Assembly: GCA_016788705.1 (NCBI GenBank)
Contig: JAEUSQ010000025.1
Location: 1-64,000, forward strand
Length of the DNA stretch: 64,000 nt
From: Bacteroidetes Order II. bacterium
GTDB taxonomy: Bacteria > Bacteroidota > Rhodothermia > Rhodothermales > UBA2364
Reading direction: 5' to 3'
The notes under the pieces are model-generated. The model had not been told where the DNA came from. It did no database searches and saw only the letters and a program-made list of their open reading frames with translations. Position numbers and translations under genes: made by a program. Below, in pieces: positions 1 to 19,123 of this stretch. The first letter of the stretch is position 1. Every line of letters begins with the position of its first letter.

Positions 1-162
1 GTTGTACAGCACCTGTTCGCTCACACCGAGCAGTTCGGCCACTTCTTTTACGCTCTTGCCGTTTTGAAGCATCCGCACTGCTTCTTCTTTGAACGCCCTG
101 TCATACTTGCGCCGCAACCGGTTCGCACTTGCAGGACTTAATGCTTGTTCTTGTTTCTTCAT
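1..162 (-). CDS. IS3-family transposase OrfA (partial, runs off the window)
   Basis: This encodes the N-terminal 54 residues of a small helix-turn-helix transposase subunit, which in IS3 elements binds the terminal repeats and is fused to OrfB by frameshifting. The visible part has the charged stretch RRKYDRAFKEEAVRML followed by the helix-turn-helix KEVAELLGVSEQVLYN, characteristic of OrfA (HTH_8/Tnp_1). It starts at ATG 162, the equivalent position to the start at 47650 in the second copy. There is no premature stop in the visible part, so unlike the right-hand copy it could be intact. Confidence 0.8.
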   Translation of the reverse strand, partial: MKKQEQALSPASANRLRRKYDRAFKEEAVRMLQNGKSVKEVAELLGVSEQVLYN

Positions 163-210
163 GACACAATATTAAGTTAGATTTGTGTCCGCCTAAATCA
201 GACCACCTCA
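1..210 (-). mobile_element. IS3-family insertion sequence, end fragment
   Basis: This is one end of an insertion sequence that runs off the left edge. Read on the minus strand it opens with TGAGGTGGTCTGATTTAG, a spacer and an orfA start. The same arrangement recurs on the plus strand at 47602, with near-identical sequence through the first 50 codons, so both copies belong to one element. The end at 210 is inferred from where similarity between the copies stops. The element lies inside a GLPGLI-family gene. Confidence 0.8.
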
Positions 211-738: not shown

Positions 739-1383
739 TTAGTTTTTTATATCAATTGCTTCTTTTATTTGCTCGAATGAAAGGCTACCCGAATACAACT
801 TATCCTTGATAACAATGGTAGGTACACCATGGATCCCAAACTCTTTCGCCACGCTTCGATGTGCTTCGATACGCAACTTGTAGGTCGTATCTTGCTGACA
901 CGTTACAAAAGAGTTTAGCTGTTTAACCCCTATGCCCTCTGCAATGGTCTTCCAATCGGTTTTAGGTTGAGAAAAGGTTTCCTTCTTGAAAACAGTATCA
1001 TGATATTGATCAAAAAAACCTAATTCTTTAGCACATTCTGCTCCATTTGCCGCCATGTAGGCATTCGGATGGATTTTATCAAGCGGAAGATGATACCGAT
1101 GAATCGAAACTTTATCAGGATATGCTGCAACAACCTTTTTTAGAACCTTCTCTTGTTCACGACAAAAGGGGCATTCATAATCCATAAATTCGATAATCTT
1201 AATTTTATTTTCAGGATCAGGATGCATACCCAGTTTCTGCGCAATCCCTTTCACTAAAATAGGTTTCACAGGCGCTTTGGGTACTTCATTTTGAGCAAAA
1301 AACTCTCTACGGACGACCAATGCAGTGATAATAATGGCACATATAATTAACACAATATCCGTCAAGTAATTACTTTTCTTCAT
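739..1383 (-). CDS. membrane-anchored DsbA-like thiol-disulfide oxidoreductase
   Basis: A 214-residue thioredoxin-fold protein. Residues 8-26 form an N-terminal membrane anchor or uncleaved signal. The catalytic CPFC motif is at 71-74 in the context FMDYECPFC, followed by an inserted helical domain and the cis-proline loop GVPT at 186-189. This is the DsbA/BdbD/DSBA-like layout; the family makes or shuffles disulfides in exported proteins. Two extra cysteines (about 117 and 162) lie in the helical domain. It sits directly downstream, on the same strand, of two genes for secreted peptides with eight conserved cysteines each. I infer that these are its substrates. Family assignment is firm, substrate assignment is inference. 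Confidence 0.88.
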   Translation of the reverse strand: MKKSNYLTDIVLIICAIIITALVVRREFFAQNEVPKAPVKPILVKGIAQKLGMHPDPENKIKIIEFMDYECPFCREQEKVLKKVVAAYPDKVSIHRYHLPLDKIHPNAYMAANGAECAKELGFFDQYHDTVFKKETFSQPKTDWKTIAEGIGVKQLNSFVTCQQDTTYKLRIEAHRSVAKEFGIHGVPTIVIKDKLYSGSLSFEQIKEAIDIKN

Positions 1384-1451
1384 GGGATCCTTCTATATGT
1401 TTGGCAATTCTTCAAATTGTTGATTGGTTTAAATGGCTAAAGCGTGTTCAA

Positions 1452-1685
1452 TCAACAACATGCTTTAGATGTTTTCCCTGCTTCTTCTGTACATACCACA
1501 CACTTTTCAGTCGTACTGCATTTACCCTGCTTCGTCTCGCATGAAACAGTAACGCCATTGCTACAAATTCTGCTAAGAGAGCATTCTGCTGTTTCCGTGA
1601 CCTTAAGAACAGGCTGACAAGAAAGAAAAATCGCACCGAGTAAAATTAATGAAATAGACAATCCTCGAATAATTTTTGTTCTCAT
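1452..1685 (-). CDS. small secreted 8-cysteine peptide (copy A)
   Basis: A 77-residue protein with an N-terminal signal sequence (MRTKIIRGLSISLILLGAIF) and a mature part with cysteine spacing C-x5-C-x7-C-x6-C-x5-C-x2-C-x10-CC. A longer frame begins at 1700, but GGAGGT lies 7 bases before ATG 1685 and this start aligns exactly with the paralogue at 1847-2080, so 1685 is preferred. I do not recognise a named family. In size and layout it recalls the short exported NVEALA-type peptides of Bacteroidota, but the NVEALA motif is absent. A cysteine follows the signal (FLSC), so lipidation cannot be excluded, although the paralogue has phenylalanine there. Likely cotranscribed with the DsbA-like gene 68 bp downstream. 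Confidence 0.72.
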   Translation of the reverse strand: MRTKIIRGLSISLILLGAIFLSCQPVLKVTETAECSLSRICSNGVTVSCETKQGKCSTTEKCVVCTEEAGKTSKACC

Positions 1686-1846
1686 TGGTTTACCTCCCAT
1701 TTAAACGATGAACGTGAGTTCAAGATATGCGATTGCATTCGCCACCATCGACAAGTCTAAACTCACGTTCAATCAAGGTACATAAATCACGCAATCTCGT
1801 TTTGGATCATTGTCAAAGACAAAAAATCATACCCTACAACAATCTT

Positions 1847-2080
1847 TTACTCACAACAAGCTCTTACTTCTGGCCCTGAATCTTTGCAAACCAGACAGTC
1901 TCCAAATGATCTACATTCGCCACCGTTTGCAGCTTTGCATGAAATCGTAATTCCATCACCACAAGATTTGCTGATGGTACACTCTGCTGCTACTGATGAG
2001 ATTGCAGGTTGAAAAGAAAGAAAAGAGGCACCGAATAGGATTACAAAAAGTGATAACCCCCGAATAAATTTTGTTTTCAT
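1847..2080 (-). CDS. small secreted 8-cysteine peptide (copy B)
   Basis: A 77-residue paralogue of the peptide at 1452-1685: signal sequence MKTKFIRGLSLFVILFGASF, then C-x5-C-x7-C-x7-C-x5-C-x2-C-x9-CC. All eight cysteines and the SCGDGITISC neighbourhood (SNGVTVSC in copy A) are conserved although the rest diverges, which suggests purifying selection on a disulfide-bonded fold. GAGGT stands 8 bases before the ATG. This start region is duplicated by a 25-bp tandem repeat at 2074-2123. It is the first gene of the minus-strand run peptide B, peptide A, DsbA-like, GLPGLI. An antimicrobial, signalling or surface-structural role is possible but nothing in the sequence decides. Confidence 0.72.
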   Translation of the reverse strand: MKTKFIRGLSLFVILFGASFLSFQPAISSVAAECTISKSCGDGITISCKAANGGECRSFGDCLVCKDSGPEVRACCE

Positions 2081-18247: not shown

Positions 18248-19123
18248 TCAATTTCCGATACGGATTGTCGTTCTGCCGCCCTCGTTCCCACGTCCGCCTG
18301 GAGGCCCCATGGATTCGCGCATTTCCCGCATTTTTTCTTCGCTCATTTTCTGAAACTCTTTGCGGTTCATTTTTTGGCCGCCTTCAGGTGTTTTGATCAC
18401 ATTTTCAGGCACCTTGTCTATTTCTACACTGGTGGCAACAAAAACCGTCCGACCAATTTCTAATTGAAGAATTGCACCTGGCAATTGGCCGTATTCATTG
18501 GGGCCTACCGAAGCCTGAATTTGTGGTGCAAACCATGCTGTGATTTTACGGGGTTCTGGTTTGGGAGTAGCTTGGGCATTGTTGTTACGATTGCCACGTG
18601 GGCCACCGAAAGCCATTTGAAACCCGCCCACCGCCGATGTATCCACAAACGTGGCTTTGATGCACTGATAGCCGAGAATGGTTTTTTGGTCTTCGTGTAC
18701 TTGCCATTCAAAGGTTTTTGGGGGATCAGTAACAATAAATTTCCTGCCCAGAAAATCTATTTTTTGCACAAAAATACCATTTTCCTGATCTGCATAATAG
18801 GCATTATCGGCACCTCCACGCCGGAACATCATCCGCATACCGCCGCGACCACCGCCTTCGGCACCCGCATTACGACTTTCTTCCAAAAGAGCAGCTTTGT
18901 CGCGTTCTGCTGCATCAGCAACATAAATAGATTTTGGACCGTCGAAATATAGAATAGAATAGTTGTCGAAGGAGGATGGCATATTGGCCATGCGTTGTTG
19001 CATTTCCGGATCATCGGTTTCAACCCGGACATTGACTGTCTCTTTGAATTTTATGGTCCCTTTCGATTGACCGAGTACCATAAATGGGAGACAAAAAAGG
19101 ATTCCACGTAGGAGTGTTTTCAT
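18248..19123 (-). CDS. GLPGLI family protein
   Basis: A 291-residue exported protein with a signal peptide (MKTLLRGILFCLPFMVLGQ). It has the family core: FLGRKFIVTDPPKTFEWQ, the QKTILGYQCIKATF block, ITAWFAPQI, and the eponymous loop as GQLPGAILQL. A glycine/arginine-rich stretch (about 95-105) and a low-complexity Arg/Gly tail (GGRGNEGGRTT) are extra. The biochemical role of the family is unknown; it nearly always sits next to an outer-membrane barrel, as here. The truncated relative at 101-703 shows the family is duplicated in this genome. Confidence 0.9.
   Translation of the reverse strand: MKTLLRGILFCLPFMVLGQSKGTIKFKETVNVRVETDDPEMQQRMANMPSSFDNYSILYFDGPKSIYVADAAERDKAALLEESRNAGAEGGGRGGMRMMFRRGGADNAYYADQENGIFVQKIDFLGRKFIVTDPPKTFEWQVHEDQKTILGYQCIKATFVDTSAVGGFQMAFGGPRGNRNNNAQATPKPEPRKITAWFAPQIQASVGPNEYGQLPGAILQLEIGRTVFVATSVEIDKVPENVIKTPEGGQKMNRKEFQKMSEEKMREMRESMGPPGGRGNEGGRTTIRIGN

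Follow-up and report, generated by a model that had tools for sequence, protein, structure and literature searches.

A small, mobile-like cassette for exported cysteine-rich peptides and a membrane-anchored, probably disulfide-locking enzyme in Bacteroidota and one gammaproteobacterium

The window, a stretch of 64,000 nucleotides from a Bacteroidetes Order II. bacterium (Rhodothermales), begins with a small, mobile-like cassette that encodes cysteine-rich peptides for export and, beside them, an enzyme anchored in the membrane, which probably locks these peptides by disulfide bonds. Cassettes like it elsewhere in the Bacteroidota and in a single gammaproteobacterium identify it as a real system, apparently one that has not been described before. 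The best explanation, to which we assign a probability of roughly 60%, is a cassette for exported peptides that brings its own dedicated disulfide oxidase and a cognate partner for binding.

All genes of the cassette are located on the minus strand, which gives the transcription order peptide B, peptide A, DsbA-like protein and GLPGLI protein. The precursors of peptide B (1847-2080) and peptide A (1452-1685) both comprise 77 amino acids, with a conserved leader followed by a mature part with eight cysteines in the patterns C5C7C7C5C2C9CC and C5C7C6C5C2C10CC, respectively (spacings 5-7-7-5-2-9-0 for B and 5-7-6-5-2-10-0 for A). The leader of peptide A contains one extra cysteine. Its mechanically called reading frame runs further, to 1700, and the ATG at 1685, with GGGAGG just 5' of it, is the likely start. 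The third gene (739-1383) encodes a DsbA-like thiol oxidoreductase of 214 amino acids that is anchored by an N-terminal transmembrane motif. It is followed by a gene for a secreted protein of the GLPGLI family (TIGR01200), of which only the N-terminal part (206-703) is present, as an IS3-like element disrupts the gene. One end of this element, including the start of its transposase OrfA, occupies 1-205 on the minus strand (HTH_Tnp_1, 8e-10). Just upstream of peptide B lies a MITE-like element of about 151 bp (2128-2278, without strand) bounded by 19-bp terminal inverted repeats (GTAACTANTTAGCACCC), which the sister genome G001 lacks. This element adjoins a 25-bp tandem duplication (2071-2120).

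The eight shared cysteines with nearly constant spacing, already pointed out in an earlier note on this DNA, proved exact in every interval. The same note held that the two peptides share little else, which must be corrected: the overall identity of A and B is 47%, 27 of their 35 invariant columns are not cysteines, and conservation is highest in the leader. Judged from their sequences, the two peptides are paralogues. Both are found again in the sister genome, and relatives extend to further families and phyla. The impression that they belong to no known family held up in Pfam and NCBIfam, where no family covering A or B comes near its curated cut-off among matches up to E = 10 and where the peptides of the relatives likewise retrieve no family. 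A predicted structure yields a beta-rich model (mean pLDDT 78) that matches no PDB structure (best E 2), and the sequence finds nothing convincing among PDB chains (best E 0.31).

Across genomes, the leaders align whereas the mature parts hardly do, with the motif M[KR]..[IFL][IV]N.[LV][AS]...I..G...L. Profiles were built from the N-terminal 30 residues with the tested genome left out. Scored against the 472 other signal-like N-termini (473 in total), they placed the peptide first in 10 out of 11 tests, including that of the gammaproteobacterium Oleiagrimonas (E 6e-4); the peptide of G300, a genome of another class, came fourth. At the level of sequence, the peptide leaders are homologous across genomes. 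When a profile of the whole peptide was run against 394 genomes of the phylum, all matches at E < 1e-9 were situated at loci of the cassette type. Weak matches in other genomes of the phylum were not accepted as members, for example that in G348 (E 3e-4), where a cysteine-rich reading frame of 49 amino acids is present but the partner genes are absent beside it. Further matches at E 0.001-0.01 occur in G421, G292, G383 and G402. The mature peptides contain six to nine cysteines (10-25% cysteine), including CC pairs, and the number of cysteines is even in 17 and odd in five of the 22 peptides. They are mostly neutral to acidic, and mature A and B contain no tryptophan. G152, G145 and G175 have peptides with the same C5C7C start as A and B, so the window pair represents a recognisable subtype.

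The gene next to the peptides had been described as encoding a membrane-anchored CPFC protein, and this description stands: CPFC follows an N-terminal hydrophobic anchor segment, the cis-proline loop reads GVPT, and the protein matches Thioredoxin_4 (1e-20, 75 bits; cut-off 23.2) and DSBA (7e-17, 62 bits; cut-off 25.6). Domain, CxxC motif and cis-proline together make it a member of the DsbA-like thiol oxidoreductases. When the order was searched with a profile built from three DsbAs, the scores split into one group at E < 1e-44, nearly all of which align from the N-terminal transmembrane segment onwards, and a remainder at E 1e-33 and weaker, mostly aligned only from about residue 40-57. The full-length relatives, transmembrane segment included, adjoin small exported cysteine-rich reading frames in other Rhodothermales, in other classes of Bacteroidota and in Oleiagrimonas (Gammaproteobacteria). 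In three other loci (L132, L130 and L144), belonging to Myxococcota and to a genome labelled Comamonas, three or four DsbA-like domains occur in tandem in one protein.

The earlier note had proposed to check whether the peptides co-occur with the DsbA-like gene. A neighbour was counted if a same-strand reading frame, 50-115 codons long and encoding a signal-like N-terminus and six or more cysteines, was present within 3.5 kb of the DsbA gene, a heuristic of our own that was identical for both sets of DsbAs. Such reading frames were present at 10 out of 14 loci of the DsbA group and at two of the 79 control DsbA loci, which were taken from all phyla. One of the two control positives, however, is Oleiagrimonas soli, whose DsbA is the second-best match in the genome collection and therefore counts in the group. 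Furthermore, the seeds and two additional genomes had originally come to attention by way of their peptides, and a fair count is for this reason restricted to loci that were found through the DsbA. Within the order, a peptide is present at six out of nine such loci (counting a convergent pair in G139), the three misses being two loci adjacent to IS elements in G148 and one at a contig end in G143; elsewhere it is present at all four (G300, G020, G041 and Oleiagrimonas). The corrected total thus amounts to 10 out of 13 DsbA-found group loci against one out of 78 other DsbA loci. The peptides are hence retained beside a DsbA-like gene in relatives, and since peptide and this type of DsbA recur together, the earlier suggestion that the peptides have an oxidase of their own is plausible.

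In most relatives, a third component is present in the form of a secreted six-bladed beta-propeller, encoded between or beside the peptide and the DsbA. Three tested propellers exceed the cut-off of PF17170, and others match this family weakly or not at all. In G300 and G020, a PF17170 propeller (2e-8 and 5e-8, respectively) is combined with MauE (PF07291; 8e-25 and 1e-24), and the G020 locus additionally contains a C39 peptidase domain. G175 carries three peptide-propeller pairs around a single DsbA. The window and Oleiagrimonas represent a minimal form of peptide and DsbA with no propeller or MauE beside the peptide. In the lineage of the window, the GLPGLI protein takes the place of the propeller. 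Its gene is intact in G001 (L034:6211-7038; 126 bits against a TIGR01200 cut-off of 50 bits), and even the truncated copy in the window scores 58 bits. In the window genome, it is split by the IS3-like element, with the C-terminal remainder on another contig (C43:7356-7688); the disruption is visible at window positions 1-205 and at C43:7356-7820, with an apparent 3-bp duplication (ATG) at the two junctions. The contig break falls inside this element. The AlphaFold model of the GLPGLI protein (pLDDT 76) is similar in fold to the N-terminal domain of PNGase F-II (Z 16) and shows a more distant likeness to half-barrels of the LolA/RseB type (Z around 10). A second, intact GLPGLI-family gene elsewhere in the window (18248-19123) is 32% identical to the cassette copy and is kept in both other species of the genus. 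The propeller gene of G152 (L035:7889-8581) is interrupted by an apparent transposase gene, much like the GLPGLI gene of the window, and the partner genes seem prone to insertion. With no propeller present and the GLPGLI gene broken, the window genome may be able to do without the partner step, or this step may no longer operate there. While the earlier note had recognised the cysteine pattern, it had missed the conserved leader, the propeller partner of the relatives and the broken GLPGLI gene.

In a tree of the quick type, based on the thioredoxin domain with the transmembrane columns left out, a single clade (SH-aLRT 99) unites 14 out of the 16 cassette DsbAs. Two DsbAs with CAYC (G174 and G175) fall outside it. 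The window DsbA groups with those of G300 and Oleiagrimonas (support 90) and not with those of its order-mates, its exact sister being unsure given the long branches and this quick method of tree building. Compared with G001, identity is mostly 96-100% over the block that reaches from an aminotransferase gene across the cassette, and mostly 73-90% in the flanks. A third species of the genus has kept the upstream genes and has no cassette at the same site, and within the family of Oleiagrimonas only one out of 97 genomes contains the cassette. Tree position, block identity, absence in the third species and this patchiness taken together indicate horizontal movement of the cassette. A plasmid origin was considered and rejected, as PLSDB contains no match to the peptides and only generic DsbAs for the DsbA, and a nucleotide match was lacking as well. 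A defence system was likewise rejected for want of a PADLOC match.

Within the favoured explanation, the cassette would function in four steps. First, the precursor would cross the inner membrane by means of its Sec-type leader, which would then be removed, as the features and conservation of the leader suggest. Second, the DsbA-like protein, tethered by a single N-terminal transmembrane helix with its CPFC facing the periplasm, as expected from its families, would oxidise the six to eight cysteines of the peptide, in line with the observed association. Third, and more weakly, the mature peptide may work together with the co-encoded secreted beta-protein, presumably by binding: the six-bladed propeller in most relatives and the GLPGLI/LolA-like half-barrel in the lineage of the window. 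Fourth, the peptide may be a fast-diversifying exported ligand between bacteria that serves competition or signalling, and the beta-protein may be its cognate binder, receptor or protector. This role is proposed because of the conserved leaders, the variable and mostly acidic cores, the peptide-propeller pairs around one DsbA, the patchy distribution and the transfer; we lean towards a ligand acting between cells on account of the variable cores, the pairs and the transfer. The first two steps have much stronger support than the ecological role proposed as the fourth. Counting against the explanation are the missing propeller and broken GLPGLI gene of the window locus, the neutral to acidic nature of most mature peptides, which is unlike that of typical cationic bacteriocins, the odd cysteine numbers in five of the 22 peptides, the position of the G174 and G175 DsbAs outside the clade, and the cassette DsbA of G190 (L163:5503-6156), in which CPFS replaces the CxxC motif and which may have lost its oxidase function or may work differently.

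Alternatively, the peptides could be bacteriocins that kill relatives, with the DsbA providing active disulfides in the manner of PedC or BdbB and the propeller or GLPGLI protein conferring immunity. A functional precedent exists in bacteriocin operons with a dedicated thiol-disulfide oxidoreductase (PedC of pediocin, BlpGst of thermophilin and Bdb of sublancin; PMC4919988), which equally combine a small peptide with its own CXXC thioredoxin-fold enzyme and in which such enzymes raise potency. The conserved leader with variable cores, the peptide-partner pairs, the patchy spread, the transfer and the C39 peptidase domain of G020 would all fit. Yet those operons are Gram-positive, their peptides contain few cysteines and the pediocin type has dedicated ABC exporters, whereas the cassette occurs in Gram-negative bacteria and encodes peptides with six to eight cysteines behind a Sec-like leader, in which a double-glycine site is not seen. 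No ABC exporter is located beside the window genes, no bacteriocin family in Pfam or NCBIfam and no PADLOC entry matches, and the mostly acidic nature of the mature peptides speaks against a classical cationic bacteriocin. We therefore consider a bacteriocin system unlikely, though worth keeping in mind.

The co-occurrence of a propeller and MauE in some relatives evokes a different possibility. The mau cluster of methylamine dehydrogenase comprises MauA, the propeller MauB, MauD and MauE, and the small subunit carries two tryptophans that form the TTQ cofactor. By analogy, the peptide could be the periplasmic small subunit of an enzyme or binding complex, seated on the beta-propeller, with DsbA and MauE as dedicated disulfide maturation factors. 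Indeed, the cassette shares with this cluster a small secreted cysteine-rich protein, a beta-propeller, a thioredoxin-fold maturation protein and, in G300 and G020, MauE in combination with all of these; MauE/MauD and the disulfides of the small subunit provide the precedent (PMC7794033). However, the cassette peptides are much shorter, the thioredoxin-fold protein is of the DSBA/Thioredoxin_4 type rather than MauD, other mau genes are not seen beside the cassette, and the minimal loci of the window and Oleiagrimonas dispense with propeller and MauE next to the peptide. Moreover, the mature sequences are too variable for a catalytic subunit, and TTQ cannot form in the window peptides as they lack tryptophan. 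Such a complex is in our view rather improbable.

Still less credit can be given to metal binding by the cysteine clusters for uptake or storage, with the DsbA-like protein maintaining the right redox state. The CC pairs and the high cysteine content would suit this function, but the oxidase-type CPFC and the mostly even cysteine numbers favour disulfides, and no metal transporter or regulator is located beside the window genes. That a housekeeping DsbA just happens to lie beside unrelated small reading frames, a view for which nothing beyond the small size of the reading frames pleads, is scarcely credible given a recurrence far above that at control DsbA loci and the leaders shared across genomes.

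Among published proposals, the nearest that we found is the mauE type of decRiPPter, which predicted Streptomyces RiPP families with mauE or mauD and precursors with at least eight cysteines, and whose authors suggest that these genes modify the peptide (PMC7794033). The likeness, drawn from the description, lies in a small cysteine-rich precursor beside membrane or thioredoxin-type disulfide genes. Peptides A and B, with eight mature cysteines each, would qualify by cysteine number, but mauE is lacking at the window locus and is present in the relatives G300 and G020. In the cassette, unlike in those Streptomyces predictions, the DsbA is anchored, conservation of the Sec-type leader extends across two phyla, and propeller or GLPGLI partners occur, with MauE confined to some relatives. 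The NVEALA peptides of Bacteroides (PF14055) are similarly small exported peptides of Bacteroidota. They are often encoded near six-bladed propellers. PF14055 (cut-off 27 bits) does not match A or B up to E = 10, has no match in the window genome at E ≤ 0.001 and exceeds its cut-off in none of 198 genomes of the phylum, with a positive Bacteroides control. The open-access papers searched offered no description of a peptide, propeller and DsbA together, and no mention of NVEALA.

We return to the exported-peptide cassette with its dedicated oxidase and cognate partner. In its most specific form, this would be a new Gram-negative exported-peptide system in which hypervariable disulfide-locked peptides with a Sec-type leader, a tethered system-specific DsbA and cognate propeller or LolA-like GLPGLI pairs have spread between phyla, a proposal that we put forward tentatively and at somewhat less than even odds. 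With this cassette, the dedication of a disulfide oxidase to exported peptides can be tested in a compact Gram-negative example. A possible function is also suggested for widespread and unexplained orphans of the Bacteroidota, namely the six-bladed PF17170 propellers, the GLPGLI proteins and the MauE-like proteins, while the conserved leader and the DsbA group provide handles for finding many more peptides of the cassette type.
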